From a virus: a stretch of DNA of 52,751 bases. The stretch spans positions 1 to 52,751 of the IMG/VR virus record IMGVR_UViG_3300032579_000020, one strand, 5' to 3'. This document shows positions 3,185-52,751 of the stretch, piece by piece. Every line of letters begins with the position of its first letter. Position 1 is the stretch's first letter. The notes beneath the pieces are model-generated. The model did no database searches, was not told the DNA's origin, and worked only from the letters and a program-made list of their open reading frames with translations. Both the position numbers and the translations under genes were made by a program.

Positions 3185-3360
3185 TACTCAGCCCACTGCT
3201 TACCGCCTAGGTAGCGCTTGGCATATGTCCAAGGGCACTTAGTGCCGTGCTTCTCAATAGAGTTGCCTGTGCGGCGCTGGCAGAAGTGGCAACGGCCATC
3301 AACGCCATTAGGATTAATAGCGACTAGGTTCTCAACAATCTGTACAAGTTTCAGTTTCAT
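3184..3360 (-). CDS. Small zinc-finger-like protein, 58 aa
   Basis: The ORF starts MKLKLVQIVE and contains RCHFCQRR, then EKHGTKCPW. The C-x2-C plus H/C spacing suggests one zinc-binding finger. It overlaps the end of the upstream HNH gene by 29 bases, and its TAA shares bases with the terminase ATG (TAATG), so it is packed into the packaging operon. The compact fit and Cys/His content argue for a real gene. Function is unknown; a DNA-binding helper of packaging is possible from context only. Confidence 0.65.
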   Translation of the reverse strand: MKLKLVQIVENLVAINPNGVDGRCHFCQRRTGNSIEKHGTKCPWTYAKRYLGGKQWAE

Positions 3361-3733
3361 TTACTAGTTTCTCGTATGCTGATTTGTAATCAGGCTTTTG
3401 TGTTACGTGCTGGTTCTCGATCAGGAAGGCAAAGCGCTGCGGGAACTTGCTTTTAATGAACTCGATAAACGCGTGACCTGCTAGTGCATTCGTGGCGTGA
3501 GCAGCCATTTCATTAGAAAACATATGATGACTAGGGCACAGTGTGAAGATATTAAGCAGGTTGTGCCGTAAGAAAGACGACCTTGAGCGTGGTATGAGAT
3601 GGTGCCCGCAAGTACGAACGCAGGTGCCACAAACAACACAAGCGCGTCCAGTGTGAAGTCTAGTGATTTCCTTATCAGCCTTATCACGCCAGTAGGTATC
3701 ATGTGGCTTTGGCTCTTTCTTTTGTTTCTTCAT
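3332..3733 (-). CDS. HNH endonuclease
   Basis: The domain has two Cys pairs (CVVCG and later C-P-S-H-H) and the HNH pattern GHHLIPRS, RHNLLNI and LCPSHH. I chose ATG 3733 (MKKQKKEPK), with GAAGG five bases upstream; an in-frame GTG at 3757 would add eight residues but has a poorer ribosome site. HNH proteins next to terminase genes often take part in genome cleavage during packaging, whereas others are selfish homing enzymes. The sequence alone does not decide between these. The gene is followed by the small zinc-finger gene, which it overlaps. Confidence 0.85.
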   Translation of the reverse strand: MKKQKKEPKPHDTYWRDKADKEITRLHTGRACVVCGTCVRTCGHHLIPRSRSSFLRHNLLNIFTLCPSHHMFSNEMAAHATNALAGHAFIEFIKSKFPQRFAFLIENQHVTQKPDYKSAYEKLVNETETCTDC

Positions 3734-4129
3734 CGTGCCTTCGGCAGCGCCGCTCACGTCTCGAAGCGAGAGGTTCGCAGCGCATGTTAACTGTCAAATC
3801 GGTTCAAGCTATGAATACACTGCACCATTGAGAACTAATTCATACGCAACCAGCGTCACAGTTCGCAGTGGGTTCGTCACCCATCTTCAGGCCGTATCTA
3901 CCGACCCTAGCTTGCTACTCACGTACTATATGGACCAACGAAGCGGTGTCTGTTCTCTTAAGGGTCTGTCAAATTCGGACTAAGTGATGTTTCCTACAGC
4001 TTAACGCAGACTCAAGGACTCGCGCTCCCGAAGTATCCTGTGGTTCTTAACCATCTCGCCTGCGCCCTTTTTACGGGCTTTGGAGTAACCAACGCGATAT
4101 CTAACCCACCGCTGATAAAGAGTGTATCA
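3734..4129. other. Gene-free interval within the packaging operon
   Basis: About 400 bases lie between the LmbU-like gene and the HNH gene on the minus strand. I see only short ORFs without ribosome sites. A small hairpin (GCCC/GGGC) lies near 4064-4078. I looked for group I intron core elements and tRNA arms and did not find convincing ones. The gap is unusual in an arm where genes otherwise touch or overlap, and it may be a remnant of the HNH gene's insertion or hold an undetected RNA. Confidence 0.5.
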
Positions 4130-4780: not shown

Positions 4781-5300
4781 CTTCTCCCTTTACAAGTTCA
4801 ATAGGCTTCTGCTTAAGCTTCTTCATAATCTCATCCACAGTTCCGACTAGAACCCGTGTAGAGTCTCTCGGCTCAAGGCTTGCGACCGTTCGTAGCATTT
4901 TCTCTGCGATAGACGCGAGTGCGAACGCGTTCGACGCTTCGAGCTTTTCTGGCGTGATGTAAGCCAACGCTTCAGCCGCCCTAGACTCCAACATCTTCGT
5001 AAGGAACGCCCGCTTCGACTGCTTTGAAAGCGAAAACTTATTGTCAGGGTCATGCTTCTTCACCAAGTCTCTGATAGTGTTAGACCTAACACCCCAAGCC
5101 TTACCGATGGTTCTAGGCGAGAACCCGAAAGCAGTTAATGCTAGAATCTGTTGAATCCTAGCCTCTAGGTTCTTAATAGCCGGGAACCCCGACGCCTCTT
5201 CTAGCGACATCGTTTGAAGATGTACCCCCTGAGGCTTTAGATTGGAGTCGTCCATGATAGGGTCAGGAGACTCTTGTGGAATGTTTAGTCCTTCATCCAT
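4695..5300 (-). CDS. Helix-turn-helix protein, candidate terminase small subunit
   Basis: This 201-residue protein has an acidic N-terminus, then an HTH-like stretch (LTAFGFSPRTIGKAWGV followed by RSNTIRDLVKKH), a long helical middle (about residues 95-150) and a charged Glu/Thr-rich tail. Small terminases share this plan: N-terminal HTH, helical oligomerisation core and a C-terminal tail that contacts TerL. Its location first in the packaging cluster supports the call. Sequence similarity to a named TerS family cannot be shown by eye. The ATG overlaps the end of the upstream 50-residue ORF. Confidence 0.5.
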   Translation of the reverse strand: MDEGLNIPQESPDPIMDDSNLKPQGVHLQTMSLEEASGFPAIKNLEARIQQILALTAFGFSPRTIGKAWGVRSNTIRDLVKKHDPDNKFSLSKQSKRAFLTKMLESRAAEALAYITPEKLEASNAFALASIAEKMLRTVASLEPRDSTRVLVGTVDEIMKKLKQKPIELVKGEDGSYREQSDTDDSSEHTGEEQEAPNGAS

Positions 5301-5437
5301 ATCAATGTCACGCTGTCCCTGTCGTTAATTGGGGCGCACTCGATGATTCTAAGCAGGGTCCAGCCGTCTGAATCCCGCGAGTTAAGAACCGAAGTAAGCT
5401 CCTGATGAGCAACGAACGAGTCTGTGATATACTTCAT
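5285..5437 (-). CDS. Small protein of 50 aa, first gene of the leftward arm
   Basis: The ORF reads MKYITDSFVAHQE, then LTSVLNSRDSDGWTLL and ends with LIWMKD. The GW-x-L and following hydrophobic strand recall the small DUF4177-type fold, a weak resemblance. The stop overlaps the start of the HTH gene by 16 bases, as is usual in this arm. A sigma70-like minus-strand promoter lies about 85 bases upstream. It is therefore probably the first translated product of the late arm. Function is unknown. Confidence 0.6.
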   Translation of the reverse strand: MKYITDSFVAHQELTSVLNSRDSDGWTLLRIIECAPINDRDSVTLIWMKD

Positions 5438-5523
5438 AAATTAGATGGGCAGGCGATTCGATGATAGCGCTATGTATATGCTACCCTGAACAAACGTCCT
5501 CAACGTCGCCTGACCATGCTTAT

Positions 5524-5552
5524 ACTGTACCAACTTCACGCCATCTCGTCAA
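5524..5552 (-). promoter_or_regulatory. Sigma70-like promoter for the leftward arm
   Basis: Read on the minus strand, TTGACG (5547-5552) and TACAGT (5524-5529) are separated by exactly 17 bases. It is the best-placed minus-strand promoter ahead of the whole packaging and virion arm. The match is by eye; a second, weaker pair (TTGAGG/TATACA, 19-base spacer) lies downstream. Confidence 0.5.
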
Positions 5553-5559
5553 CTACTTT

Positions 5560-5589
5560 TTGTACTCATTTGCGTGACAATGCTATACG
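5560..5589 (+). promoter_or_regulatory. Tandem rightward promoter 1
   Basis: TTGTAC (5560-5565) and TATACG (5584-5589) have an 18-base spacer. A TGC immediately before the -10 gives an extended -10 element. It is divergent from the leftward promoter at 5524-5552 and nearly identical in layout to the next one. Confidence 0.45.
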
Positions 5590-5607
5590 CCTATTTCTGC
5601 ATACGAT

Positions 5608-5637
5608 TTGTAGGTTCTAAATAATGGTGTCTATACG
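5608..5637 (+). promoter_or_regulatory. Tandem rightward promoter 2
   Basis: TTGTAG (5608-5613) and TATACG (5632-5637) again have an 18-base spacer, 48 bases downstream of the first copy. The repeated hexamers and equal spacing make chance less likely. Transcription from here would enter the structured-RNA region beginning near 5850. Confidence 0.45.
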
Positions 5638-5805
5638 TAGGAGAGAGTAACAAAGACAGTGATGGCATAGACAGCAGTGTACGCCAGAGTGACAGTGATG
5701 TAGTGTCTTTTTCTGGTGGCGAAAAGACGTCTTGGAAAGTCTCTATAGGCTGAGTTTGCGGGACTAGTTCTGCGCGCACCGACCACCCCACCGGAGGGGG
5801 CAAGG

Positions 5806-5838
5806 CCCGCCCCCGCGGCCCCTGACTCCCCCCCCCCC
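5806..5838 (-). other. Potential G-quadruplex tract
   Basis: The plus strand has C runs at 5806-5808, 5810-5814, 5819-5822 and 5828-5838 (eleven Cs), so the minus strand carries four G runs of three or more with loops of 5, 4 and 1 bases. It lies between the divergent promoters and the first structured RNA. The 11-base homopolymer is also a likely length-error site in the assembly. Confidence 0.5.
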
Positions 5839-5850
5839 TGCTTTCCCATA

Positions 5851-6500
5851 GGTGTAAGCGTTGCAGGTCAGCCGGTCAAAGCGGCACCTGCGACAAGCGC
5901 CACACCGTTAGGTGCCGGTCAGGATGGAAAGCCCTGACGACGCAAGCAGCTCGACTATTCGAGCCGGTGCCCGCGGCCGTGTTCATTGAAAACCTAGCGG
6001 TCTGTTCGGCGTGGTAAAAGACATTCCCGCCGTGATAACAGAACCAAATAGATTATGAAGCTTGCCCCATTTTCCCCGCGCATGTAGCGCGCAGGGTGGG
6101 GCGGGAGTAGTCCGGCGCGAAACGTTAATACGTGCGCCGGATAGTCAGCGGCGGGAGGATGGCCGATAGCGGCGGATGTCCCTTAGCTGACGCACTCGAA
6201 AGCTTGTAGGCTCTAACCCTAGCCTAGCGTATGTTAGCGGTAAATCCTGTTACAGGCCGCCCCCACCCTTACAGCTAAATGCTAAACTGTGAGCGTGCCT
6301 TGTGACTGATAGCGACGACGCCGGCAATGCCGGACATAAGGTCAACGTATGCGAAGCGTATTGCCTAGACTAGGATTAGAACCTGCAAGCCGTAGAGGCT
6401 AAACACGAGTGTATTACCCTGTAATATGCGCGTGTTTGGTTGCTCCCGCCCGATTAGAGGACGGCGCAAAGTGTAAGCTTTGGCCGCAAACCACTAAACA
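5851..6500 (+). ncRNA. Large structured non-coding RNA candidate A
   Basis: No credible coding ORF fills this stretch, but it is dense with perfect helices. Examples are GCAGGT 5863-5868 with 5886-5891, inside GGTGT 5851-5855 with 5902-5906; GTCAGG 5918-5923 with 5933-5938; GCTCGA 5949-5954 with 5959-5964; GCCCCA 6064-6069 with 6097-6102, enclosing CGCGC 6077-6081 with 6087-6091; the 8-bp TCCGGCGC 6111-6118 with 6134-6141; GTCAGC 6144-6149 with 6186-6191; TAGGCT 6207-6212 with 6221-6226; CCGGC 6321-6325 with 6329-6333; and AACACG 6402-6407 with 6431-6436, enclosing TATTAC/GTAATA. Nested order along the strand suggests one folded transcript of roughly 600-690 nt from the tandem promoters. Large ornate phage RNAs (GOLLD, ROOL) have this size and setting; membership is untested. 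The ends are approximate. Confidence 0.6.
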
Positions 6501-6539
6501 CCAGTAAGCACGCGAAACAAGCGGGGCGGAGTAGGTAAA

Positions 6540-7088
6540 ATGAACGATACGAACGCGGTGGCGGTTGTCGGTTCGCGGACGGTTCTCAAGAGCGGCGTAG
6601 TGAAAGAGACATTCGTGCAAAAGGGCGCGGATGGCAAGATGGCCGCTTTCGAGACTGTCATGGGTAAGCGCGAGACGGGTTTCGATGGCAAGGGCTATTC
6701 CTTCTGGCGCGGGCTGGCTGGAAAGCCGGAGTATAACGAAGCCGGTCAGATGGTGCGCGAAGCCCTTAAGGGCAAGGCCAAGAGCGAATGGGTCGAGGCG
6801 CGTATGAAAGAGCAGAATGAAATCCTCGCGCCCATGATTGCTGCGGAAGAGCAGCGGATGCAAGAGAAGGGCCTCCGCAAGCATGGTGTGCGGATGCACA
6901 ACGACGGCACGCGTGGGCGGGTTGTCTACGCTCTGCCGAAGAAGGCCGCGCTCAAGGCCAGCACGAGCGAAATGGTAGAGGCGCTGATTGCGGCGGGTTA
7001 CAAGATCGAGAAGCCCGTCGCCGCCAAGACGCAGGACGCTCAGGTTACGTCCAGCACGACGACCTATGAGCAGCAGGATCAGAAGTAA
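6540..7088 (+). CDS. Highly charged 182-aa protein of unknown function between structured RNAs A and B
   Basis: The ATG follows GGAGTAGGTAAA, a clear ribosome site. The protein is soluble, rich in K, E, A and G, with predicted helices around residues 70-115 (many E, R and Q) and a Thr/Gln-rich tail. I recognise no domain. Codon use and GC content are higher than in many later genes. It is the only long gene within 2.3 kb of otherwise structured non-coding sequence, so it may act with those RNAs, for example as a binding protein, or be an early host-directed protein. Both ideas are inference from position. Confidence 0.8.
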   Translation: MNDTNAVAVVGSRTVLKSGVVKETFVQKGADGKMAAFETVMGKRETGFDGKGYSFWRGLAGKPEYNEAGQMVREALKGKAKSEWVEARMKEQNEILAPMIAAEEQRMQEKGLRKHGVRMHNDGTRGRVVYALPKKAALKASTSEMVEALIAAGYKIEKPVAAKTQDAQVTSSTTTYEQQDQK

Positions 7089-7090
7089 GT

Positions 7091-8215
7091 TGCGGTAGCG
7101 GGAAAATAAGATGCTATAAAAGGCACCAAGTACCGCAGAAGCGGGGGCGCTATAAACCCCCGCACTCTTAGGCGGGCTTCACGATGCAGGCAACCAATTT
7201 AAGGTGGCGAACGGCGGGCGAGAGCCCTTAAACCTTCAACCGTGCTAAACTTTTAAGCCTGCAATCTATTTGGGAACTAATAAGTTCCGCTAGGCAATCA
7301 ATTTGGTGATACGGTGTGCACCGTGGAATGTACGACATTATGAATCGTTAGAGCGAAAGTAAAGGAGAGTACTCGGCAAGGTCAGGAGTGACGCTGGTGG
7401 CGGGGAAATTCCACTCTGTAAATACGAGCGCGATAGGTGCGGGCGTAGCCCAACGTGGGAATCACCACAAAGACTATCGGTTACAGATAAATCGCGGCAG
7501 GGGCGTTGCTCCGTAAACTGCGAAAAGAATGACGCTAACGGTTTGTTACTTAAATTCTGATAAGGCGTTCTCTAAGCAGAGACATGGCACCAGACAAGGG
7601 CATGACAGGGCGTGAATCCTGTACGTGGGTGAATCAACACCCTATAGTTTTTCTAGACTATACTCGGCAAGGGAAACCAAATCCCGCTTGAAGTGTTGCT
7701 TGTATGGGACTTCACTGGCAAATCCAAGGTAATGAAAGCCTTGGGGGTGTTTGCTTGGGATGCTGAGTATACCGCGAAAGCCGCGTGGAATGGTGGGAAC
7801 AAGTCAAACCTCCAAACCGCTGCCGATTGAGAAACTACCCCGATATTCCTAGTGGCTCCGAGCGTCACAGGCCACATGAGTTGATGGCGACTAGGACAGA
7901 CTGGCTAGAAACCTACCAGACAAACATTCTAAGGGGTATGGAGGACTATACCCTAATGAACAGCATAAGCCTAAAGACGGGCATTAACAGGGCTGGGTTA
8001 TTGTATGCCGCACAAAAGCCATCTGAATGAGATGGAATAGTAATGCGGATTTAGCTTGGCGCTTGCGAAACTCGAAGTTACTAAGAAGATGAAATAAGCG
8101 GCCATGAGACGTGAAAACCGTCAGCTATAATGGGCGGAAGCGCACCTACGGGAGCATGGGTCCGTACAACCAATGCGTGTTATACGACAGTTGCTAATAG
8201 TTGAAACAACACCAA
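7091..8215 (+). ncRNA. Large structured non-coding RNA candidate B (about 1.1 kb)
   Basis: There is no convincing gene for 1.1 kb, but there are many exact helices: TGCGGTA 7091-7097 with 7131-7137; GCGGGGG 7141-7147 with 7157-7163; TGCAGGC 7185-7191 with 7257-7263, enclosing AAGGT 7201-7205 with 7232-7236 and a GAGA tetraloop on GGGC 7216-7219; GGAACT 7273-7278 with 7283-7288; CGATAG 7431-7436 with 7474-7479; an 11-pair helix 7659-7669 with 7761-7771 (one G-U), enclosing CCAAGG 7724-7729 with 7739-7744; GGGTAT 7934-7939 with 7948-7953; CCATCT 8019-8024 with 8030-8035, inside CCGCA 8008-8012 with 8044-8048. Short motifs recur (GGCAAYCNATTT three times, TACTCGGCAAGG twice). One RNA or two adjacent ones is unclear. 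Two ORFs of 74 and 81 codons overlap it but lack ribosome sites. Confidence 0.6.
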
Positions 8216-8232
8216 CTCGACAGGAGAACAAC

Positions 8233-8331
8233 ATGAAAATCGAGTGGCTAATCTACGCGCTGTTCTGTATTGGAATGGCGTTTCTTGCATTCGCCGCAGT
8301 TGCATGGCTGGAGACGCTATGGGTACGATAA
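8233..8331 (+). CDS. Single-pass membrane peptide, 32 aa
   Basis: The start follows CAGGAGAACAAC, a strong ribosome site. The peptide is MKIEWLIYAL, then a continuous hydrophobic segment, ending LETLWVR. One membrane helix fills nearly the whole product. It overlaps the next gene by 13 bases. It is one of several such micro-proteins in this arm; function is unknown. Confidence 0.6.
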   Translation: MKIEWLIYALFCIGMAFLAFAAVAWLETLWVR

Positions 8332-8489
8332 ATAAAGAAGAAAGCGAGGTAATCAACAGGGCGCTAAACTCGGCGCTAGAATTGGCGAAGGAAGGCAAAC
8401 AGGTTAGGCTTTATGTTGATTGGCGCGACGCCGCTCCTGAAAGCAGCCGCACGTGGATGCGACCATTTATACAATTCGAGGCAAAATGA
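8319..8489 (+). CDS. Hypothetical protein, 56 aa
   Basis: Starts MGTINKEESEVINRAL and has a helical first half followed by a strand (QVRLYVDWRD) and a short tail. It is linked to both neighbours: it starts inside the membrane peptide gene, and its TGA overlaps the next ATG as ATGA. No family is recognised. Overlap coupling is the main support. Confidence 0.6.
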   Translation: MGTINKEESEVINRALNSALELAKEGKQVRLYVDWRDAAPESSRTWMRPFIQFEAK

Positions 8490-8683
8490 TAGCGCATAAG
8501 CAGTTCGCCATCGTCCAGTTCAAGAAGAACGGCGAAGGCGTTTGGGTCCACAACGAAGTGATTGCCCGCGGGTTGCTTCGCTACTGCGATGCAGTCGCAT
8601 TGAAGCGCAACTTTGCCAAGACCGAGTTTGGCAAGAACGCTAAACTCCGCATCAAGGCCAACGTGTCCGCTTGGGTGCGGTAA
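8486..8683 (+). CDS. Hypothetical protein, 65 aa
   Basis: Starts MIAHKQFAIVQFKKNG at the ATGA overlap. It is basic (many K and R) with an alternating beta-like N-terminus and a helix around VIARGLLRYC. An earlier in-frame ATG at 8453 would deeply overlap the upstream gene and has no ribosome site. It ends the small operon; a terminator follows. Function is unknown. Confidence 0.65.
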   Translation: MIAHKQFAIVQFKKNGEGVWVHNEVIARGLLRYCDAVALKRNFAKTEFGKNAKLRIKANVSAWVR

Positions 8684-8740
8684 CAATCTTTCAACGTGCC
8701 GCCGTGATGTCTGGAAGCTGGAGAACATTAACTCCACGCC

Positions 8741-8764
8741 AGCCGTTACGGCGGCTTTTTATTT
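8741..8764 (+). terminator. Intrinsic terminator after the 8.2-8.7 kb mini-operon
   Basis: AGCCG (8741-8745) pairs with CGGCT (8752-8756), and the stem runs into TTTTTATTT. The stem is short (5 bp) but GC-rich and sits between genes. Confidence 0.6.
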
Positions 8765-8788
8765 GGTGAAGCGAGCGTAGGTTTAGCC

Positions 8789-9523
8789 ATGAAAAATAAA
8801 ATTGCATATCATTTCGTAGGTGATAAACTCAGAGACGGACGGCCGGTTCCAAAGGACGGTGAATGGCTGGAACACTTTGGGCGTATTGAAATATGTACGT
8901 CTGGTCTTCACGCATCATTCGACGCTTTCGATGCGCTTCAATACGCGCCGGGTAATACTCTTTGCATTGTCGAGGTTGATTGTATCTGCGACACGAGCGC
9001 GGATAAGTTTGTGTGCCGCAAACGCAAGATTGTAAAGCGAGTAAATTCCGAAGAACTACTCAGGAAGTTCGCAATGGACCGCGCCCTTTCTGTGATTGAT
9101 AAGTGGGATGCGCCACCTATTGTCGTGGAGTATTTAAAGACAGGAAATGAGTCGCTGCGGGCCGCAGCTTGGGCCGCAGCTAGGGGCGCAGCTAGGGACG
9201 CAGCTAGGGCCGCAGCTTGGGCCGCAGCTAGGGGCGCAGCTAGGGACGCAGCTTGGTCCGCAGCTTGGGACGCAGCTAGGGCCGCAGCTTGGGCCGCAGC
9301 TTGGTCCGCAGCTTGGGACGCAGCTAGGGCCGCAGCTTGGGCCGCAGCTAGGGACGCAGCTTGGGCCGCAGCTAGGGGCGCAGCTAGGGACGCAGCTAGG
9401 GCCGCAGCTTGGGCCGCAGCTAGGGACGCAGATAGGGCCGCAGCTTGGTCCGCAGCTTGGGACGCAGCTAGAAAAGTATTTAACGAGATGGTTAAAAAGG
9501 CGTTCGATAAAATATCTTATTGA
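8789..9523 (+). CDS. DUF7666-like protein with 26 Ala-rich tetrapeptide repeats
   Basis: The first 100 residues (AYHFVGDKLRDGRPVPKDGEW, then LHASFDAFDALQYAPG and CIVEVDC) form a compact domain resembling the DUF7666 family of phage proteins. Residues about 125-228 are 26 tandem tetrapeptides of the form [A/G/D/S]-A-A-[W/R] (one is DADR), then a basic tail. The repeat should form a long regular helix with Trp and Arg spaced every four residues, which suits binding to nucleic acid or membrane. Function is unknown. The DNA repeat leaves other frames open too; the N-terminal domain identifies this frame as the real one. Confidence 0.82.
   Translation: MKNKIAYHFVGDKLRDGRPVPKDGEWLEHFGRIEICTSGLHASFDAFDALQYAPGNTLCIVEVDCICDTSADKFVCRKRKIVKRVNSEELLRKFAMDRALSVIDKWDAPPIVVEYLKTGNESLRAAAWAAARGAARDAARAAAWAAARGAARDAAWSAAWDAARAAAWAAAWSAAWDAARAAAWAAARDAAWAAARGAARDAARAAAWAAARDADRAAAWSAAWDAARKVFNEMVKKAFDKISY
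9161..9472 (+). repeat. Tandem 12-bp repeat, 26 copies
   Basis: The unit is NNC-GCA-GCT-[T/A]GG, with small variation in the first codon and the last. It is in frame with the Ala-rich protein. Its multiple-of-three length keeps several alternative frames open, which produces long spurious ORFs on both strands. Copy number may vary between relatives through slippage. Confidence 0.95.
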
Positions 9524-14501: not shown

Positions 14502-14926
14502 ATACACCGAACAGATTCAGATTTAGGGCGTTTGACACTAAGAACAAGCGCATGGTCGAGATTAAAGAAGCAAAAAGCAATACCTCTCTTATTGCTATGT
14601 GTTCTTTCGGCAATCAGGTTGGGTTCATAAACGCAGACGGCTCAACGTTTTGGAGTCCATTCTGCGTGATGATGCAAAGCACCGGCCTATCCGACAAGAA
14701 CGGCAAGGAAATATTCGAGGGTGACATCGTTAGTGTTGACGGGTTTGAGCCAAATCGAATGCTGGTAGAGTGGGTTGAGAGCGCGTGGTGTATGACTCAC
14801 CCGTCACTAAACATGCCGATTGAGTTTACGTTCTTAGAGGACAGCACTGGCAAGCAGTCTGTGGTTGTCGGGAATATCCACGAAAATTATGAGCTTTTGA
14901 AAGGAACAAATGCGAGTATACATTGA
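14498..14926 (+). CDS. YopX-family protein, 142 aa
   Basis: RFRAFDTKNKRM at the start, VMMQSTGLSDKNGKEIFEGDIV in the middle and VVVGNIHENYELL at the end are the three hallmarks of the phage YopX family. The family forms beta-barrel-like assemblies and is common in phages of many hosts; its role is not established. I chose ATG 14498 at the ATGA overlap. Confidence 0.88.
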   Translation: MNTPNRFRFRAFDTKNKRMVEIKEAKSNTSLIAMCSFGNQVGFINADGSTFWSPFCVMMQSTGLSDKNGKEIFEGDIVSVDGFEPNRMLVEWVESAWCMTHPSLNMPIEFTFLEDSTGKQSVVVGNIHENYELLKGTNASIH

Positions 14927-15506
14927 TGGTGACGGGGTTCGGCACGTATCTCACCTGCCTGACGGCGAGAACGAATACGAGGAACAGTTCTTTAAGCCAG
15001 CGCGGCGTCCTCGCTTCACGGAGCGTGGCTACCGTATGTTTTGGGGCGGTGCGGACATCAACCCGAAGCTGTACGGAGAGAAGGCGCAGAAGGAAACACA
15101 CTTCTCGCTTGATGCTGACAGGCAAGACCTTGCAACGTATCGCAAGTGCATTGACCTAGACCTTGGCGCTGTTGGCATATGCCGTGGTTGCCAGTTCCTT
15201 TGGGCAATGTCAGGTGGTAGGTTGATGCAGGACATCGTTCCGCGCCATCCGTCGCCGCATGGAGTCAGGGGTACTGTTGACTTCTTCGTGAACAGCTACC
15301 ACCATCAAGGCTGCATTCTGACCAACGGAAAGCCGCCTGATGGTTTGGAGGTTCTTGCAACGCACGGAGACATCGTTGAGGCGTACGCCGGAACCAACCA
15401 TGATGGAGTTCGCGTCATGGCCGTGCAGTGGCACCCCGAAATGCTGCATGATAACTTTGCTTGCTCTCGCTGGTTTGACAAGAAAATAAAGGAGATGTTC
15501 GGATGA
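14910..15506 (+). CDS. Class-I glutamine amidotransferase-like hydrolase (peptidase C26 type)
   Basis: The 198-residue protein has GGADINPKLYGE, the nucleophile elbow GIC91RGC, the NSYHHQ motif and QWH175PE177, matching the Cys-His-Glu triad of the class-I glutaminase fold and, in particular, the gamma-Glu-X hydrolases (PuuD-like). These cut gamma-glutamyl amides or release ammonia from Gln. It lacks a synthetase partner domain. With the AIG2-like gene before it and the amidoligases after it, it may recycle or trim amide-linked products. It overlaps the YopX gene by 17 bases. Confidence 0.85.
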   Translation: MRVYIDGDGVRHVSHLPDGENEYEEQFFKPARRPRFTERGYRMFWGGADINPKLYGEKAQKETHFSLDADRQDLATYRKCIDLDLGAVGICRGCQFLWAMSGGRLMQDIVPRHPSPHGVRGTVDFFVNSYHHQGCILTNGKPPDGLEVLATHGDIVEAYAGTNHDGVRVMAVQWHPEMLHDNFACSRWFDKKIKEMFG

Positions 15507-16006
15507 ACGGTTCAGTATTCGGAGATAATGTTGTTGCACCCAAGGAAGGCGACATGGTGATGACAAAAACGGCAAATGGCTCATGCACTCACCTTGAGCT
15601 GTACGGATTTTGGTCGGTTAAAGGTTCCCAAGGTTGGAAAAAGATACCGGAAGACAAGAAGATGGTTGACTTTGAAGCGCGAAGACTTGATACAGCAGAG
15701 CAGCTTCTTGGGCTTCAATGTTTTAGCGGAAGCACCAAAATATATGCAGATAAAGATACGCCAGCATCACGCTGTGGATGGCTTGGCTACAAGATAATCT
15801 CCTGCCTAGTAACGGAAGAACAGAATATGCAGGCCATCCTTGAGGACCTAGGGTTCAAGACAGGCTTCGTTTCTGGAACTGGACAGAACACAATGCACCC
15901 AGGAACTACACTGATTCTGATGGCCGCTGACCCTGCCGTTCTCCACAAGCGGTGCCTAGAAGTGACAAGTAAAGGAGTTTATGTCAAAAAAGATAAAGCT
16001 ACCTGA
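15503..16006 (+). CDS. Hypothetical protein, 167 aa
   Basis: Starts MNGSVFGDNVVAPKEG at an ATGA overlap. The middle is mixed alpha/beta (EEQNMQAILEDLGF, TTLILMAADPAVLHKRCLEV). No motif is recognised. It overlaps the next gene by 26 bases. Location inside the amide-bond cluster suggests a role there, as inference. Confidence 0.7.
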   Translation: MNGSVFGDNVVAPKEGDMVMTKTANGSCTHLELYGFWSVKGSQGWKKIPEDKKMVDFEARRLDTAEQLLGLQCFSGSTKIYADKDTPASRCGWLGYKIISCLVTEEQNMQAILEDLGFKTGFVSGTGQNTMHPGTTLILMAADPAVLHKRCLEVTSKGVYVKKDKAT

Positions 16007-16478
16007 GAATCCTCCGCACAAATACGCCATCTTCGTATGGCGCACAAAGCTCGGACGCCACGGACTAACGCTGCCAATGCTGGCGGCGTTTTCTCTTTGG
16101 TACAAAGGTGGTAACTTCGAGGACATCGAAGAGGTCCGCAAAGAGGCGATGCTGATCGGTGACGAGATGTACGAGCATCCTGATTGCGCGTTTCCTGTTT
16201 GCAGGAGAAATGAAAAGCGCGGAAAGATTGGTCCGGGATTTGATGTTGTTGGTGTTGACCCAGTTCCGACCAGAATCCACCACTTCACATGCGGGCGCAT
16301 AGGCGAGCTTGTGTTTGCCCTGAACACTGGCGGTATTCCGATACAACGCAGGCTGGCAATGCCTCGCTATCCTTGGACTGGTGTCTCAAAGAACAACGAC
16401 GCGTGGGGTCCGCTAACTGCGTGGGACTTGACGTTCTTCCGTTGCGTCAAACACTTCATGGAGAAAGGAAGCATGTAA
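15981..16478 (+). CDS. Hypothetical protein with a YPWTGVSKN motif, 165 aa
   Basis: AAGGAG lies upstream within the preceding gene. The N-terminal region is helical and basic; the middle has CAFPVCRR and HHFTCGR, possibly zinc-binding. The last 40 residues (YPWTGVSKN, WGPL, DLTFF) match the C-terminus of the 131-residue product at 12998. Its stop overlaps the next start (TAATG). Confidence 0.7.
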   Translation: MSKKIKLPENPPHKYAIFVWRTKLGRHGLTLPMLAAFSLWYKGGNFEDIEEVRKEAMLIGDEMYEHPDCAFPVCRRNEKRGKIGPGFDVVGVDPVPTRIHHFTCGRIGELVFALNTGGIPIQRRLAMPRYPWTGVSKNNDAWGPLTAWDLTFFRCVKHFMEKGSM

Positions 16479-16702
16479 TGGCCGGTATACGCAAGTTCTT
16501 CGGCGAGGTTGACGAGAAGACGAACGAAGTGAAAGGCGCATTTCGTTTCGGCGCTGTTACCTTCTATCAATACTGTCTTCGCCACATCGAGGGTTTCTTC
16601 CAATGGCGTGAAATCAAATATCACGGTGAAATCGTGCTATGGCCGCACATCATGGGCAAGCCGCTGGACTATGACAAGGACTTATTTGGGAGCAACCAAT
16701 GA
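16478..16702 (+). CDS. Hypothetical protein, 74 aa
   Basis: Starts MAGIRKFFGEVDEKTN. Aromatic-rich (FYQYC, FFQWREI, WPHIMG) with no recognised domain. Joined to both neighbours by overlaps. A longer in-frame extension to 16289 lies wholly inside the previous gene and is rejected. Confidence 0.65.
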   Translation: MAGIRKFFGEVDEKTNEVKGAFRFGAVTFYQYCLRHIEGFFQWREIKYHGEIVLWPHIMGKPLDYDKDLFGSNQ

Positions 16703-16920
16703 AAGTATATCGCAATCTTGTCGTCAGCGTCATTAAGACAGTGGATGGCGTTGCGATGGTGCATGACGGCAGCGGGAACGTATTCGAGGTCAATGAAAAG
16801 GAAATCATTGCATACCCCGAGGCAGAACTTGCTTCATGTGTAGAGCGCGATATGGCCTGCACATACTGCCCTCATAACAAAGACGGGTGTACGCGTGTCA
16901 AAGAAAAGAGCTTTGCATGA
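16699..16920 (+). CDS. Hypothetical protein, 73 aa
   Basis: The first half is an all-beta barrel-like pattern (VSVIKTVDGVAMVHDGSGNVFEV). The second has CVERDMACTYC and a later C, possibly a metal site. ATGA overlaps on both sides. Function is unknown. Confidence 0.65.
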   Translation: MKVYRNLVVSVIKTVDGVAMVHDGSGNVFEVNEKEIIAYPEAELASCVERDMACTYCPHNKDGCTRVKEKSFA

Positions 16921-17315
16921 TATGGAAAACAGGTGAACCCGGCTCGAACTGCTCTAAGTGTGGCGGGAAAGTAGAGGGGCTTCTTGTTGCATCTCAGGGA
17001 ATAATTCGCACCTGCGCCGGATGTTTCATCGAAATCTCGCCTGATGGCCCAATAGCTTGGGAGGCGGCTAATTTCTTCGGGTGCTCTGAAGACAAGTCTA
17101 TTGAGTTTGCTGAACATATCATAAGCGAGCTTGAGACGTATGGAATAATTTTGGGGCGCAGAGAGAGGCTGTGCCCTATTTGCTTTGGTTCTGGAAAGAT
17201 TTATCAGGGCCAGAAATGCAGCCTGTGTAGCGGCAGTGGAACGTTGGACTGTAAGGCGTGCGGAAACAAGGGTTTTAATACTGTGGGGCAAAAATGCCCT
17301 ATCTGCAATCGGTAA
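16917..17315 (+). CDS. DnaJ-type zinc-finger protein, 132 aa
   Basis: It opens with a ribbon (CSKCGGK, CAGC) and ends with repeated CPICFGSG, CSLCSGSG, CKACGNKG and CPIC, the C-x2-C-x-G-x-G zinc repeats of DnaJ. No J domain is present. Such stand-alone repeats bind unfolded peptides or act as adaptors; a substrate-carrier role for the ligases encoded next is possible but unproved. ATG 16917 comes from the ATGA overlap. Confidence 0.75.
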   Translation: MIWKTGEPGSNCSKCGGKVEGLLVASQGIIRTCAGCFIEISPDGPIAWEAANFFGCSEDKSIEFAEHIISELETYGIILGRRERLCPICFGSGKIYQGQKCSLCSGSGTLDCKACGNKGFNTVGQKCPICNR

Positions 17316-17325
17316 GAGGGAAAAG

Positions 17326-18480
17326 ATGAAGAAAAACAAGAAGGTTCTGACGCGTGAGCTGGCTAAGTTGGCGCAAAATCACGGCAATTTATTGATGGGT
17401 GGTGATGTGGAGGCGTTCGCCATCGGTCCTGATGGTGTCGTTATCCCAGCGGATGCCGCCGGGTTCTTCCCGTACTCGCGTGAATACGTCAGGCCTGTTG
17501 GCGAAAGCCAATATCACAAAGTATTTGCGGATGGTGTTCAGGTTGAACTCAATTTCACTCCCGCAACTTGCCGTGACGGCATCGTTCTCTCGATGAATCG
17601 ATCAGTCAATGAGTGTATTCAGTACGCAAGTCGCAAGAGGGCGGCCAAGATGCACGCGCTGTCGGCGGTCAAGATGACTCAGGCGCAGATTGACGTTGGT
17701 CAATACCTGTCCCATGTCATGGGCTGCAACCCGGACTTCTCGGCGTACACCGACACCCCAAACCGTCCCATTGAGGACTACGCTAATCATCCGATTCGCA
17801 CCGCTGGTTATCATGTGCAGTTCGGCAAGTGTGTGAATCCGGAATACGAAAAGAAGTTCGCCAAACTGTGCGACAGAATCGTTGGACTCGTTGCCATGTG
17901 GGGCGACCGCGATGAGTCGCACAGGCTCCGTAAGGGCGACGGCGTTGGACTCGCTGGCTGCTACCGCAATCATCCGGCAGATGCAAACCCACGCTTCGAG
18001 TACCGCACCTGCGGTTCGTTCTGGCTCCGTAAGGCGGCTCTGTCTCACGCGCTGTTCGGAATGGCGCGGATGGTGCATCACATTTGGGAAAGCGGCATGG
18101 CTGACGTTGTGATTGACCAGATCGAAGACGACGAAGCCCGTGCAGCCATCAACAACTGCGACAATGATGCCTGCAAGGCGCTGTTTATGCGGCTGCTTCC
18201 GTTCCTGTCTGATGTGGCGGTCAACATCAAGGACTGGCAGTTGCCAATTTCAAGTTGCAATAACACGGCCTACGCCTCGTACACACCCATACGAGACAAG
18301 GAGCGTACATTCCAGCTTGCTGCGCTGGTGTGGATGCTGGACGGAAACATGAAGTTCGATTCAGAACTGAACGACTTCACCGCCGGAGATTACTATGGCT
18401 GGAATAACTACTCGCACGCGCAACTTAGATACAATGCCGCCTATCGCAAGTTCGAGACCGAGTTCATGGCGAATCTGTAA
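17326..18480 (+). CDS. phiEco32-like COOH-NH2 ligase, type 2 (glutamine-synthetase-like fold)
   Basis: The 384-residue protein starts MKKNKKVLTRELAK after GAGGG. GGDVEAFAIGPDG is the first metal- and ATP-binding strand of this family (commonly G-x-D-P-E-F). Later come VELNFTPA, GYHVQFGKC, GVGLAGCYRNH and ANPRFEYRTCGSFW, matching the order of acidic, His and Arg active-site strands in the phiEco32-like COOH-NH2 ligase domain. These ligases use ATP to join a carboxylate to an amine. The substrate is unknown. A longer in-frame start at 17185 overlaps the zinc-finger gene and is rejected. Confidence 0.8.
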   Translation: MKKNKKVLTRELAKLAQNHGNLLMGGDVEAFAIGPDGVVIPADAAGFFPYSREYVRPVGESQYHKVFADGVQVELNFTPATCRDGIVLSMNRSVNECIQYASRKRAAKMHALSAVKMTQAQIDVGQYLSHVMGCNPDFSAYTDTPNRPIEDYANHPIRTAGYHVQFGKCVNPEYEKKFAKLCDRIVGLVAMWGDRDESHRLRKGDGVGLAGCYRNHPADANPRFEYRTCGSFWLRKAALSHALFGMARMVHHIWESGMADVVIDQIEDDEARAAINNCDNDACKALFMRLLPFLSDVAVNIKDWQLPISSCNNTAYASYTPIRDKERTFQLAALVWMLDGNMKFDSELNDFTAGDYYGWNNYSHAQLRYNAAYRKFETEFMANL

Positions 18481-18496
18481 AAAGACCGGAGGCAGT

Positions 18497-18721
18497 ATGA
18501 AGGAACTCGTTCTGCATATGTACAGAACGCTTCTGAGCAAGAAGTTCAGGAGCGAGTCTCAAGCAAAAGAGGCTTTGACAGCTCGCATCCGTAACGGTCA
18601 GACACGCGAGGAAGCCATCACATCAATGTACGTATCGTATGTTGATGTGTTGCTGGGGATGAAGGCACCACACGCAGACGACCAAGAGGATGTGCTTCAA
18701 CTTGAAAATCGACAGAATTAA
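18497..18721 (+). CDS. Hypothetical protein, 74 aa
   Basis: CGGAGGCAGT precedes the ATG. The product is helical: MKELVLHMYRTLLSKKF, then a turn and EEAITSMYVSYVDVLL. It lies between the two ligases and overlaps the second by 32 bases. Unknown; a small adaptor is possible. Confidence 0.65.
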   Translation: MKELVLHMYRTLLSKKFRSESQAKEALTARIRNGQTREEAITSMYVSYVDVLLGMKAPHADDQEDVLQLENRQN

Positions 18722-20141
18722 GTGCAAGTGCAACTCGCCAGCAATAGGGTTTGTGCTAGATGTGCCGATCTGCAAGCAATGCTTCCGTCGTGACTACACA
18801 AGGTTCGGTGAAGGCTTCGAGCTTCGCAAGAACGTAGTCATTGAAGAGGGCGGAAGCCTTCGCAGGCGCGACGAGGTGCACGAACTCATAGACCCAAAGA
18901 CCGGGCGAAAGATTTACTCACGCAACCGATACGAGATTCGGGGGCAAGGGTTTGTGTCAGAGAAAACTCTGACAAGCGCTGTTGAAAGTCGAGAGGTTAT
19001 TGAAACCCACAGAGGCTTTTATCGAGCAGGAGACCTTGTGTACGACGACTTCGGAAGACCGTTTCCTAAGGAGTATGCTCTAAAGTATTCCCGTAAGTGC
19101 GCGTCTTGTGGCAAGGCGTACACAGTTTCAGGTGGTCAGCAAACCATGTCGGAGACAATGTGCTTCGAATGCCAAGTAAAGAAAGGATGCTCGTGCCAGA
19201 ACTGCGGAAAGCCTTTCACGCCAAACCCTCAGATTAGATCAATGTTAATGCTTGGCATTGACAAGTACATCTATGGTTACTGTCCTGCGTGTGTAGAGAA
19301 AAGCCTGCCGTTTGTGTATCACGGAAAGAAGGAGGTAGAAGGAACAGGCAGGACCGTAGGCGTTGAGGTAGAGTGCGAGCCTACGGTTGGCTCCCAGCTT
19401 GAACTTGCCATGTGGGGCGACAAGGAGCATATGGTGACAGGGATTACCGACGGCTCGCTACGAGGGAAGTTCCCGTGCGAGTTTGTGTCGCCAATTCTGC
19501 ACGAGTCGAACTATGAATGGTGGCTTGGCGAGTTCGGCAAGCGTCTGAACGCAGTTGTTTATATGCGCTGCGGGCTGCACATCCACATCGGAACGCAGGA
19601 GTTCGGGTGGTTCGAGATGAACAACCTGATGCGCTACCTGAAGAAGTACGAGCAGTTCTTCTTTAGCGTGGTGTCTCCGTCTCGCAGGCTTCCAGAGGTT
19701 GTGAACGGAAACAACGCAGGTCTTCCGGTTACACTGCCAGACATCCCTGCATTCCATAGCCGAGAAGATTTGCTGGACTGGTGCTATGGCAGGTCTAGGG
19801 TTAAGCAGAGCATTGGGAGTAACATTCACAAGACCAAGCGGTGCAACGACAGGGGTGCTAAGTACGATGGCAACCTGAACAGGTATCAGTGGGCCAACTT
19901 TCACGGGCACTGGTTCAAGGGTGCTATTGAAATCAGAATTCATCAAGGCACATCCAACGTCCAGAAGATTGCTAACTGGATGGAGTTCTGGTTCAACATC
20001 ATTCCTCACGCTGCCCTGCCGGAAGAGAAGTGGAAGCACCCGCTAAAGGTTATTCCGAAGCACCTAGAGGTGTACTACCTCGATAGAATTGAACGCTTTA
20101 AAAAGCTGGCTAAATCTGGCCTAGTTCAACGTTTGCAATAA
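18690..20141 (+). CDS. Amidoligase_2-family ligase with N-terminal zinc ribbons
   Basis: This 483-residue protein has three Cys-pair sets in the first 200 residues (CKCNS with CKQC; CASCGK with CFEC; CQNCGK with CPAC), then GRTVGVE226VE228CEPT, which carries the acidic metal-binding pair, ITDGSLRG, CEFVSPIL, GLHIHIG, and AIEIRIHQGTSN near the end. This is the amidoligase core, related to glutamate-cysteine ligase and glutamine synthetase. The zinc-rich front is an unusual addition that may recruit a protein or nucleic-acid substrate. It overlaps the previous gene; a TTG start ten bases on is possible. Confidence 0.82.
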   Translation: MCFNLKIDRIKCKCNSPAIGFVLDVPICKQCFRRDYTRFGEGFELRKNVVIEEGGSLRRRDEVHELIDPKTGRKIYSRNRYEIRGQGFVSEKTLTSAVESREVIETHRGFYRAGDLVYDDFGRPFPKEYALKYSRKCASCGKAYTVSGGQQTMSETMCFECQVKKGCSCQNCGKPFTPNPQIRSMLMLGIDKYIYGYCPACVEKSLPFVYHGKKEVEGTGRTVGVEVECEPTVGSQLELAMWGDKEHMVTGITDGSLRGKFPCEFVSPILHESNYEWWLGEFGKRLNAVVYMRCGLHIHIGTQEFGWFEMNNLMRYLKKYEQFFFSVVSPSRRLPEVVNGNNAGLPVTLPDIPAFHSREDLLDWCYGRSRVKQSIGSNIHKTKRCNDRGAKYDGNLNRYQWANFHGHWFKGAIEIRIHQGTSNVQKIANWMEFWFNIIPHAALPEEKWKHPLKVIPKHLEVYYLDRIERFKKLAKSGLVQRLQ

Positions 20142-20158
20142 GAAAGCAGGGTACTTAA

Positions 20159-21712
20159 GTGTGTGGAATTTGGGGCGGATTTAACGGCGAGACCTATAGG
20201 AATATGGTTCTCGCTATTCTGAACATTGAGCGTGGACGCGATTCGTTTGGCTTCACTACGGAGAACGAGAAGGGAGACGGGTACGACATTGGTCACGGAC
20301 TAGGCTCAATCGTTCAGGCAATGAAGGATGAGGGGTTCCCGATGGATGTGTATAGCAAGAAGATGTTTCTCGGGCACACCCGAAACTCGTCGGTTGGTAC
20401 GGTTACTCTTAAGAATGCCCATCCCTTCACCAGCGGGCACATTACTGGTGCGCACAATGGAAGGGTTGCAAACTTCTGGATTCTAAAGAACGAATACAAA
20501 GACCAGCACAAGGAGGTTGACGCCTTCGACGTTGACTCTGAAATCATCTTCTGGCTTCTGAACGAGTTTGGCGTGAATGCGCTGGCTCGGCTTGAAGGAC
20601 GCATCGCTTGCTGGTGGGTGGACGACAGGAAGCCGGGCAAAGTGTTTGCGTGGATTTGGAATCAGGACTTCGCTGTGGCATTGAAGCCATACCCTGCGTT
20701 CTCGTCTGACGACAACCATCTGCGCGTTGCTGGATTCGATGACATCAAGAAGCTGGAAGACACTGGTCAGTTAATCAAGTTCGACATGAAGGAGGCAGAC
20801 AAGGGATTTACTCAGGTGGCGTTTATACCGGGGCACACGGCTCCCATTGTCACGGTCAAAGACAATCGCATTTCATGGCCTTCTGATACAGGTTTCATAC
20901 AGTATCCAAATACCAAGAAGTCCCTTAATGATAAAGAGATGACCTGCATTGGCAGGGTGTGGGACGTGGCTTCGCAGGACTGGATAAAGCCTAAGGCGTT
21001 TTTGAACGCAGTCAATGACGACGGAGTTACAGACAGCGACGAGAAGCATCGCGTTATACTGTCGTCGATACATATCGGAGCCAGCGTGTATCAGTGCGCC
21101 TCGTGCCATGAGATGGTTACAAAGAAGCACACCACACAGAACGCTGCGTGTCAGGACATCCATAGCGGTTGCGGCGGAGTATGCGAGCAGCCAATAGCTG
21201 GCGTCATGTATGACCTAAGACAAGTAGCCTCGTCTGAGATTGCCAAGTTTGTTGGCAAGGTTGAAACAAGGTTTCATCCTCGGGAGATTCGTGCTTTTAT
21301 AAAGAATGATAGAACTATTCTTACCCAAAAGGAGTCAAAACAAACTGAGGCAACCGCAGGGAAACAACTGCACCTTCCAATCGGGGCAGAGATTAGGAGC
21401 ATCTGCGACATCTGCCTTGGTTGCCAGCTTAAGACGCCAGACCTTGTTCTAGCTTCGTGTGCCACGTTCCGACACGTTGACGGAGCCAGTATGTGCAAGA
21501 TGTGCATTTCAGATTGCCAGCTAATTGGAAAGGGACACAGCATCGTCGGGTGCAGGACGTTCAGAGCTAGGATAACTCAGGAGCGACCTCAGTTGAAGGA
21601 GCTGCTCGGAACGACCGTGGATGGATGGGAAAACCCATGTGATAAATGCGCCATTGAGTACTGCTATAAACGTGGAAAGGTATTGGACTGTTCGGAGGCT
21701 ACACCGTTCTAA
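20159..21712 (+). CDS. Class-II glutamine amidotransferase (Ntn hydrolase), 517 aa
   Basis: A GTG start puts Cys at position 2 (M-C-G-I-W-G-G-F), the N-terminal nucleophile after Met removal. GHTRNSS, HPFTSGHITGAHNGRVANF and EIIFWLL match the GATase-II fold seen in PurF, GlmS and AsnB. The region after about residue 240 carries many Cys pairs (CASCHEM, CDICLGCQ, CKMCISDC, CDKCAIEYC) and no synthetase domain. It would supply ammonia from Gln to a partner such as the ATP-grasp or amidoligase encoded beside it. Its stop overlaps the ATP-grasp start (TAATG). Confidence 0.87.
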   Translation: MCGIWGGFNGETYRNMVLAILNIERGRDSFGFTTENEKGDGYDIGHGLGSIVQAMKDEGFPMDVYSKKMFLGHTRNSSVGTVTLKNAHPFTSGHITGAHNGRVANFWILKNEYKDQHKEVDAFDVDSEIIFWLLNEFGVNALARLEGRIACWWVDDRKPGKVFAWIWNQDFAVALKPYPAFSSDDNHLRVAGFDDIKKLEDTGQLIKFDMKEADKGFTQVAFIPGHTAPIVTVKDNRISWPSDTGFIQYPNTKKSLNDKEMTCIGRVWDVASQDWIKPKAFLNAVNDDGVTDSDEKHRVILSSIHIGASVYQCASCHEMVTKKHTTQNAACQDIHSGCGGVCEQPIAGVMYDLRQVASSEIAKFVGKVETRFHPREIRAFIKNDRTILTQKESKQTEATAGKQLHLPIGAEIRSICDICLGCQLKTPDLVLASCATFRHVDGASMCKMCISDCQLIGKGHSIVGCRTFRARITQERPQLKELLGTTVDGWENPCDKCAIEYCYKRGKVLDCSEATPF

Positions 21713-22518
21713 TGAAAAAGATTGTAAAGTATAACTGTATCGAGACGATGAAGAAGATCATCGCTCACATGAAGCAGAAGGTTGATGTTGTTGATTCGCT
21801 GAACGGTGATGCCTTGACTCATCTGATACGTTATGGCAACACTCAACCGTTCGACAACGCTGACCTGACGTATAACTGGCAGTCAGCTATTCTCAACGCC
21901 GCCGACAAGATTGACGCTCGCCGACTGATGAGGGCTGCTGGTGTTATGATTCCGCGCACAGTCCTGCCTGACGATGATGTTGGCATTATGCAACTCATCG
22001 GAAAGTGGATTGCTCGCCCGTCAGAACACTTCGCTGGCTCCAACTTCGAGGTGATTGTTGGGCGCAAGAAGGCACGCGAGTTCTTGGACAACGGCTGGTA
22101 CCTGTCGAAGATATTCAAGAAGGAGCGCGAGCTTAGGATTCACTGCGCCCACGGCAGGGTGCTGCTGATTCACGACAAGGGCATTGATGGCCGCACACTC
22201 AACAGCAACACTAACACAACGGCAGACTGGTCAGTACTTGAGTGGAAAGATTATCCGTTGCTGGCGTGTCAGCAAGCGTTGAAGGCTTGCGATGCCTTGG
22301 GACTGGATTGGGGCGGAGTGGATGTTCTAACGCACGGAGACGACTGTGTTGTGCTCGAAGTCAACACTGCTCCGTCTGTTCCGGGTCAGATAGGCCCGAA
22401 GAAATATGCTCGCTACTTCGACTGGTTGCTGTCGTCTGACAAGCGCCGCGAGCATTACGATTGGAAGAAAATCAAAACAGGCCATGATATGCCTTGGAGA
22501 CACGAAGAGCTAAAATGA
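21712..22518 (+). CDS. ATP-grasp ligase, 268 aa
   Basis: ADKIDARRLMRAAGVMIPRT is the entry to the ATP-grasp domain, WIARPSEHFAGSNF matches the flexible ATP-binding loop, ERELRIHCAHGRVLLIHDKG the middle strands, and VLEVNTAPSVPGQ the metal-binding end with the E-V-N motif. RimK-like and D-Ala-D-Ala-like enzymes of this fold make peptide or amide bonds through acyl-phosphates. It is stitched to the GATase-II gene before it and the HELVH gene after it, which supports a shared pathway. Confidence 0.85.
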   Translation: MKKIVKYNCIETMKKIIAHMKQKVDVVDSLNGDALTHLIRYGNTQPFDNADLTYNWQSAILNAADKIDARRLMRAAGVMIPRTVLPDDDVGIMQLIGKWIARPSEHFAGSNFEVIVGRKKAREFLDNGWYLSKIFKKERELRIHCAHGRVLLIHDKGIDGRTLNSNTNTTADWSVLEWKDYPLLACQQALKACDALGLDWGGVDVLTHGDDCVVLEVNTAPSVPGQIGPKKYARYFDWLLSSDKRREHYDWKKIKTGHDMPWRHEELK

Positions 22519-51068: not shown

Positions 51069-52751
51069 GCGCCACCGCCCATAGCACCAGCGATAGCGTT
51101 GCCGCTAACCTGACCGGCGGTTTGGTTGCCAGAAGCGCCCTGCTGCTGCGCCTGAGCCTGAGCGGAAGCAGCTTCCATCTGCTGCATGAGGAACTCTGTC
51201 TCTGCGATGTGGTGGTCCAGCAGAGTAACCTGAGGCATCTGTTCCTCGATACCATTGTAGCGCAGGCGCTCACCCTTATGTTCCGCAAGGTGGACGCCGT
51301 GGTTCTGGTTGGGCTGCGGGCGAACGTAGATGCCACCGAGCAGTGAAGTGTTCTCGTTGCGAGCAACAACCTCTGCGTCCTTATCTACACGGCCTGTAAC
51401 GATCTTGCCGTAGTCGAACTTGTATCGTTTGAACCAAGCGCGAGCCAGTTCAGACACATCAATAACCTGCAAGAACGCAGGGTTCTGGCCGAACGTTCGG
51501 ATGGCCTCATTGATCTTCTGTGACTCGACAACATCATCCTCGAACTCGTCAACGATGTCAACCTCTACGTCGAACTCGCCATAGATTGTCGAAGGACGAA
51601 TAACGCTGGTCTGCTGTTCGCCGGTAATGCGGACAACCTGTAGCGGGTCTGAGAAGTTCTGCCAGTAGCTCTTGAGCTTCTTGGCATAGAATCCAAGGTA
51701 CTGCTCAAGGATGTAGCGAATAGAAATCATGTGCGGCTGAACAGAGTTCTTATACGTGTTAGAAGCCTCAGTTGCCGACGTGCGTGCGCCGAAACTCTCG
51801 CCCATGAACGGCTTGTCAGTAGCAAGCGCAGACATCGTATCGTCACGGATGTAGTTAAGGAAGTTGGTGGTAATCTGCGTAGTATCGCGGATTTGGAACT
51901 CTTCTAGAGAATTCTGACTATCGCAGATGAACACCTTACCGGGAGTGAACTCAAACTTCTTACCGCGCACCTGACCCTCAAGCATCTTGAGCGGAGGGCG
52001 ATTAACAAGAGTGCAGTTATCAATAGCCTGATTCTTTAGCGTGCATTCGACGGAGTAGTTAGACCTGATGATCTGAGCTGGTGAAGTGTGATACAGGATG
52101 TCAGGGTCGTCAGGTAGACAGTGAATCATCTCAACAGGGAATTCACCATCAGGGTCAGAGTTCTCTTCTAGTCGGATGCACAGAGAGTTGTTAATGTCAT
52201 TGCCTACGAAAGTGCCCCACCAAATATTTGGCTGGTTCTTTGTATCCCATGTGCCGTTCTCAATAGGAGAGCGCATGAATACATCCCACACAAGGAACTG
52301 ACCAGTATAGGAATCCCCAGCTAGTGCCTCATTATTGGCAAGCTTGAACCGCGTAAGAGGTTCTCCGCTAACGCCATCCCACCGATACTTACCCCACAGT
52401 TCAGTGCCAGCCAAAGACTGCACCGCTTCTGCGTCATAGTACGAAGCGCGTGCGCCATCCAAAAGCTCAGAGTAGTTCTTCAGGCCGGGGATAACAATGC
52501 AGTTCTGTCCCTGAATACTACCGATATACATATCAGCGTACAGTGTTTCAGTAGGAAGAATGCGAACGGAGGGATAGTTGTCTACTGTGAACTCCTGCTC
52601 GTATTCCTTAAAGCCAACAATCTGAGCCTCAATCTCGCCAGTGGCCTGATTCTGCATCGGCTGAATAACGGGTTCGCGTACCTTTCGCTTGCCCTTCTTT
52701 ACGATCTGCTCCGCCATGATCGGCACGTTACCGATCTTGAAAATCTGGTGC
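51065..52751 (-). CDS. Portal protein, C-terminal part (5' end lies at 1-603)
   Basis: The frame is open from the right edge; joined at 52624/1 it continues the 603-base N-terminal part, giving 720 residues. The region has mixed beta and helix, GVSGEPLTRFKLANNEA, a long helical stretch (TSATEASNTYKNSVQPHMISIRYILEQYLG), the wing or clip area and a Gln/Ala-rich, unstructured C-terminus (SAQAQAQQQGASGN). The helical stretch before residue 500 is what a portal stem would show. The apparent Met start at 52726 is internal and is not the gene's start. Confidence 0.78.
   Translation of the reverse strand, partial: HQIFKIGNVPIMAEQIVKKGKRKVREPVIQPMQNQATGEIEAQIVGFKEYEQEFTVDNYPSVRILPTETLYADMYIGSIQGQNCIVIPGLKNYSELLDGARASYYDAEAVQSLAGTELWGKYRWDGVSGEPLTRFKLANNEALAGDSYTGQFLVWDVFMRSPIENGTWDTKNQPNIWWGTFVGNDINNSLCIRLEENSDPDGEFPVEMIHCLPDDPDILYHTSPAQIIRSNYSVECTLKNQAIDNCTLVNRPPLKMLEGQVRGKKFEFTPGKVFICDSQNSLEEFQIRDTTQITTNFLNYIRDDTMSALATDKPFMGESFGARTSATEASNTYKNSVQPHMISIRYILEQYLGFYAKKLKSYWQNFSDPLQVVRITGEQQTSVIRPSTIYGEFDVEVDIVDEFEDDVVESQKINEAIRTFGQNPAFLQVIDVSELARAWFKRYKFDYGKIVTGRVDKDAEVVARNENTSLLGGIYVRPQPNQNHGVHLAEHKGERLRYNGIEEQMPQVTLLDHHIAETEFLMQQMEAASAQAQAQQQGASGNQTAGQVSGNAIAGAMGGGA
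52625..52751. repeat. Terminal direct repeat, right copy
   Basis: Exact copy of bases 1-127. Count only once in genome size: the unique length is 52,624 bp. Confidence 0.95.

Follow-up and report, generated by a model that had tools for sequence, protein, structure and literature searches.

Related systems

To our knowledge, few large structured RNAs have been described in phages, and what they do is poorly understood. ROOL RNA assembles into a homo-octameric nanocage, and tRNA genes are a frequent but not obligatory feature in or near GOLLD RNAs. In size and ornateness, the candidate described here comes closest to GOLLD, ROOL, and OLE, and RNAs of the OLE type bind dedicated proteins (PMC12286853). 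The nearest kind by position is the put RNA of phage HK022, which acts on the early genes (PMC9378689).

The candidate lies in a stretch of 52,751 bases (IMG/VR record IMGVR_UViG_3300032579_000020), referred to below as the window. The first and last 127 bases of this record (1-127 and 52625-52751) are identical, and the portal gene, assigned by position and without a family match, spans the end-to-end join as pieces of 222 and 553 amino acids. Given the identical ends and the gene across the join, the record very probably represents a complete, circularly assembled phage genome of 52,624 bp. On the minus strand is the gene for the terminase large subunit; the plus strand carries the replication genes, including a DnaB-type helicase. 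These late (minus) and early (plus) arms, labeled according to their gene content, part between 5301 and 6540, and the cumulative GC-skew minimum of the genome falls at the divergence point (5604).

The initial annotation proposed a large structured RNA at 5851-6500 and suggested GOLLD and ROOL among the families to be compared. The candidate does resemble these RNAs in being several hundred nucleotides long, non-coding, phage-borne, and, by prediction, elaborately multi-branched. However, an Rfam 15 search for GOLLD, ROOL, and other families gave no hit at the gathering score and no relevant one at E ≤ 5, and ARAGORN detected within the window none of the tRNA genes that often accompany GOLLD. 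OLE, group I and group II introns, tmRNA, RNase P, and other Rfam RNAs likewise gave no Rfam match, so that assignment to GOLLD, ROOL, OLE, introns, tRNA, or tmRNA is unsupported. With OLE, the candidate shares the arrangement of a large folded RNA adjoining the gene for a possible protein partner, but OLE belongs to a bacterial operon and the candidate to a phage, and the neighboring product is a basic orphan protein. The phi29 pRNA is also a structured phage RNA, and the candidate is close to packaging genes; it differs in the lack of an Rfam match, and the present phage possesses a conventional terminase large subunit. Finally, HK022 put is comparable in that this RNA element lies where an early phage transcript begins, but the fold predicted here is far larger and the two have no sequence relation.

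Non-coding status and fold stability

The contention that no gene fits this region is borne out. All six frames are rich in stops, and the longest stretch of 5851-6539 without one measures 62 codons; shuffled versions of these bases have a median of 104. The plus-strand fold attains z-scores of −8.6 (n = 20), −7.3 (n = 40), and −8.1 (n = 30) against dinucleotide shuffles. After GC correction, the region ranks first in predicted stability among all 678-nt segments scanned genome-wide. Pairs with probability >0.95 account for 40% of its bases, versus 12 ± 6% in shuffles, and coding segments reach at most 29% (n = 26). The excess of unpaired A relative to shuffles is not significant.

The candidate RNA is about 480-680 nt long, and the folded unit runs from about 5840 to 6538. 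The predicted fold covers the proposed 5851-6500 and extends slightly past 6500. The absence of a protein frame and an unusually stable predicted fold, which together we take to mark a large structured non-coding RNA, are both found here. We consider it quite probable that 5840-6538 forms a real structured RNA, a model that is well supported by features of the single sequence: its stability and pair certainty, the lack of coding capacity, the tandem promoters aimed at the region, and its location where the early arm begins. On these grounds the proposal of a large structured RNA is supported in part, although the candidate belongs to none of the families suggested for it.

Architecture of the predicted fold

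The predicted plus-strand fold divides into a 5′ domain (5840-6061) and a main domain (6062-6538). The 5′ domain comprises local hairpins at 5860-5894, 5918-5938, 5949-5964, and 6001-6042, with helix probabilities of 0.9-1.0 and weaker closing pairs. The main domain is closed by 6062-6066/6534-6538 and 6074-6079/6521-6526; this stem has a probability of 0.7-0.8 when folded alone and 0.2-0.9 in longer transcripts. Within it lies a five-way junction (6099-6451) with an 11-bp closing helix (6099-6109/6441-6451) and arms at 6110-6142, 6144-6191, 6195-6397, and 6398-6440, which are separated by only 0-3 unpaired bases in the predicted fold. The closing helix of the junction and the tested arm stems remain at 0.93-1.0 in all contexts, including transcripts lengthened by ~200 nt on the 5′ side and 560 nt on the 3′ side. 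The core helices thus hold their probabilities in longer transcripts, whereas the outermost closing stem does not.

Both helices singled out in the initial annotation are present and are predicted to be parts of this tightly packed junction. The GC-rich helix pairs 6111-6118 (TCCGGCGC) perfectly with 6134-6141 (GCGCCGGA) over 8 bp at a probability of 0.99, and the segment that it closes (6111-6141) includes an inner ACGU hairpin. The two-layer hairpin is recovered at 6398-6440 as 6398-6407/6431-6440 (0.97) plus 6409-6417/6421-6429 (0.99). The long arm (6195-6397) is built of stems 6202-6210/6382-6390, 6212-6216/6376-6380, 6218-6222/6370-6374, and 6224-6227/6365-6368, parted by 1×1 C-A mismatches, with a branched tip beyond. 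A 3′ hairpin (6454-6497) carries a GUAA tetraloop of the GNRA type. We note that the apical loops CUAU (5955-5958) and AUAG (6166-6169) are complementary; a loop-loop contact is possible, but chance may explain the match.

Promoter-like elements and strand of transcription

Tandem plus-strand promoters were originally placed just upstream of the RNA. Two near-identical promoter-like elements do lie upstream on the plus strand, P1 (5560-5589, TTGTAC-N18-TATACG) and, 48 bp after it, P2 (5608-5637, TTGTAG-N18-TATACG), but they are 210-290 nt away and do not immediately adjoin the fold. Their position corresponds to that of the GC-skew minimum (5604). TTGTA-N19-TATACG has no other exact match in the genome, and a tandem of this type occurs in 0 of 3000 shuffles of 5301-5850, an exact value that should not be over-read since the test was devised after the elements had been seen. 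A generic sigma-70 scan listed no plus-strand promoter upstream of the region; P1 and P2 were found by direct search. A very C-rich stretch with a C run near its end can be read from the plus-strand sequence (5776-5838); it separates the promoters from the folded RNA. Just 3′ of the tandem promoters, GACAGTGATG is present at 5655-5664 and again at 5691-5700, 36 bp apart. Back to back with P1 and P2, and facing the late arm, is a leftward promoter-like site (5524-5552, minus strand, TTGACG-N17-TACAGT with a preceding TG), identified by consensus match only.

Folding alone leaves the strand unfixed. The minus strand folds nearly as well (z of −5.9 to −6.7), four 1×1 C-A mismatches on the plus strand become G-U pairs on the minus strand, and counts of G-U versus A-C give mixed strand evidence. 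From the promoters and the gene order, we infer that the RNA is read from the plus strand. Leftward transcription, with the region serving as leader of the late arm, would be consistent with a minus-strand MFE equal to that of the plus strand (−290.6 vs −290.2) and with a long arm that is rendered gap-free by G-U pairs. However, the tandem elements aim rightward at the region, and the leftward site itself (5552-5524) lies beyond it, which makes this arrangement very unlikely.

The similar folding of the two strands, together with the nearby GC-skew minimum, would also be expected of a DNA-level element such as a replication origin or packaging site, in which inverted repeats act as DNA and mimic RNA helices. 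The location upstream of the helix-turn-helix (HTH) protein and terminase large subunit genes fits this possibility. On the other hand, the region is GC-rich and contains neither iterons nor an AT-rich unwinding tract, and the HTH protein is not confirmed as a small terminase. Nested multi-branch architectures with near-certain helices are typical of RNA, and skew minima mark divergent transcription too. A role as a DNA element is therefore improbable.

The 182-residue ORF and a proposed early leader

Directly 3′ of the RNA, the plus strand carries an ORF (ORF182, 6540-7088) for a basic protein of 182 residues (pI 9.5). It is an orphan with no PHROG or Pfam match, and AlphaFold models of this protein and of the HTH protein are too weak to name either. 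The GGAG Shine-Dalgarno sequence of ORF182 sits within the 3′ closing-stem region of the RNA, and its start has a mean unpaired probability of 0.28, the lowest of 20 plus-strand gene starts (0.32-0.67 for the others). No terminator-like site was found between the RNA and ORF182, so the RNA most simply shares the ORF182 transcript. A dedicated anti-start sequence in the leader (5981-5987 vs 6539-6545) was considered and rejected as within chance, and complementarity between the leader and the start region is at chance level overall (shuffle fractions 0.08-0.5).

Our preferred reading, to which we assign a probability of roughly 0.45, is that the RNA is a large, structured early leader acting mainly in cis. 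Transcription would start at the tandem promoters (5560-5637) and proceed rightward across the C-rich spacer, after which the transcript would form the folded module, in which one long arm extends from a compact five-way junction. This module would constitute the 5′ head of one continuous early transcript, its 3′ closing strand leading straight into the Shine-Dalgarno sequence and start of ORF182. The fold may protect or gate the early transcript and keep the ORF182 start buried; opening or binding of the fold, perhaps by the basic ORF182 product itself, would then expose the start. Plus-strand transcription, a single continuous transcript, and cis action are the elements that we infer in this scheme. 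It is favored by the stability of the fold, the robustness of the junction, the absence of an ORF, the tandem promoters, the skew minimum, the buried ORF182 start, the lack of a terminator ahead of it, and a positional parallel in phage Pag-Yong1 described below. The absence of homologs, the comparable folding of the reverse strand, and the chance-level complementarity of leader and start argue against it, and simple translational control would require a much smaller fold.

That excess of size and complexity over usual cis leaders is instead what would be expected of a stand-alone, trans-acting RNA of the GOLLD/ROOL/OLE kind, cut or terminated from the early transcript and working as an RNA or RNP particle, perhaps with the adjacent basic protein as partner. 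This main rival to the cis leader is possible, if on balance unlikely. The very high pair certainty, the five-way junction, and the basic orphan next door agree with it, as does the precedent of OLE-type RNAs with dedicated protein partners (PMC12286853), but the missing terminator-like site, the ORF182 ribosome-binding site inside the closing stem, and the lack of an Rfam match do not. A bolder and rather unlikely reading is that the RNA is the first representative of a new class of large, ornate RNAs in phages, encoded where the early operon begins and acting as a discrete RNA or RNP with the 182-residue protein.

The region directly follows the early promoters, as does HK022 put (PMC9378689), and the early arm beyond it is long (26 kb) and mostly one-directional. 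The nascent RNA could accordingly be imagined to bind host RNA polymerase and suppress pausing or termination along this arm. The region matches no known element in sequence, however, and outside ORFs the 5000-9000 interval contains a single strong plus-strand terminator-like hairpin (8741-8756). Put-type elements are simple hairpins, far smaller than the fold predicted here, and we rate a processivity function as highly improbable. As a separate observation, the hairpin at 8741 is followed by a T run (8741-8770, plus strand), and this site may be the end of the first early transcript.

Placed where the early operon of a very probably complete genome begins, and with the ribosome-binding site of the small basic protein gene running into its closing stem, the predicted RNA would link a large RNA to a testable stage of infection. 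Its confirmation would establish a further family and offer a clear assay of the function of large RNAs in phages.

Relatives and genome context

BLAST searches of phages and plasmids gave no homolog of the RNA, and comparison with 26 distant virus records produced matches at chance level only. No true relative of ORF182 was found in viral or genome contigs. The same holds for the terminase (as a single protein, in a paired alignment, and against genomes) and for queries with the capsid (single and paired), the DnaB pair, the portal, and a tail protein. Since the collections searched may leave out near-identical records, this absence of homologs is not proof of uniqueness.

The nearest recognizable match to the capsid protein is that of Planktothrix phage Pag-Yong1, at 25% identity. 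The divergence region of this phage (39496-41616) is gene-sparse over about 2 kb, with a GC-skew extreme at 41128. It contains a 300-nt structured stretch (39501-39800; z of −5.4 vs a background of −0.6 ± 1.2) that immediately precedes the opposite arm's first gene and folds on the strand of the adjacent arm. We regard this likeness as one of position, in a very distant phage, and not as homology. Six distant phages, which have the capsid fold alone in common with the present one, possess non-coding gaps that appear structured by z-score. These gaps are AT-rich and contain terminator-like hairpins and small genes; they are not comparable and were dropped as support.

Several other features of the genome deserve mention. 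A second gene-poor stretch lies 3′ of ORF182 (7089-8233) and contains TACTCGGCAAGG twice (7370 and 7661); its fold is no better than a z of about −2.5, which is not exceptional. Genes for a GIY-YIG homing endonuclease and an HNH endonuclease flank the terminase large subunit gene (907-1389 and 3332-3757). A cluster at 14910-22518 comprises glutamine amidotransferase, COOH-NH2 ligase/amidoligase, and S6 glutaminyl-transferase-like genes, auxiliary functions that are unusual for a phage. Finally, 8789-9523 encodes a DUF7666 protein whose C-terminal half is a repeat rich in Ala, Arg, Trp, and Asp (AAWAAARDAAR...).
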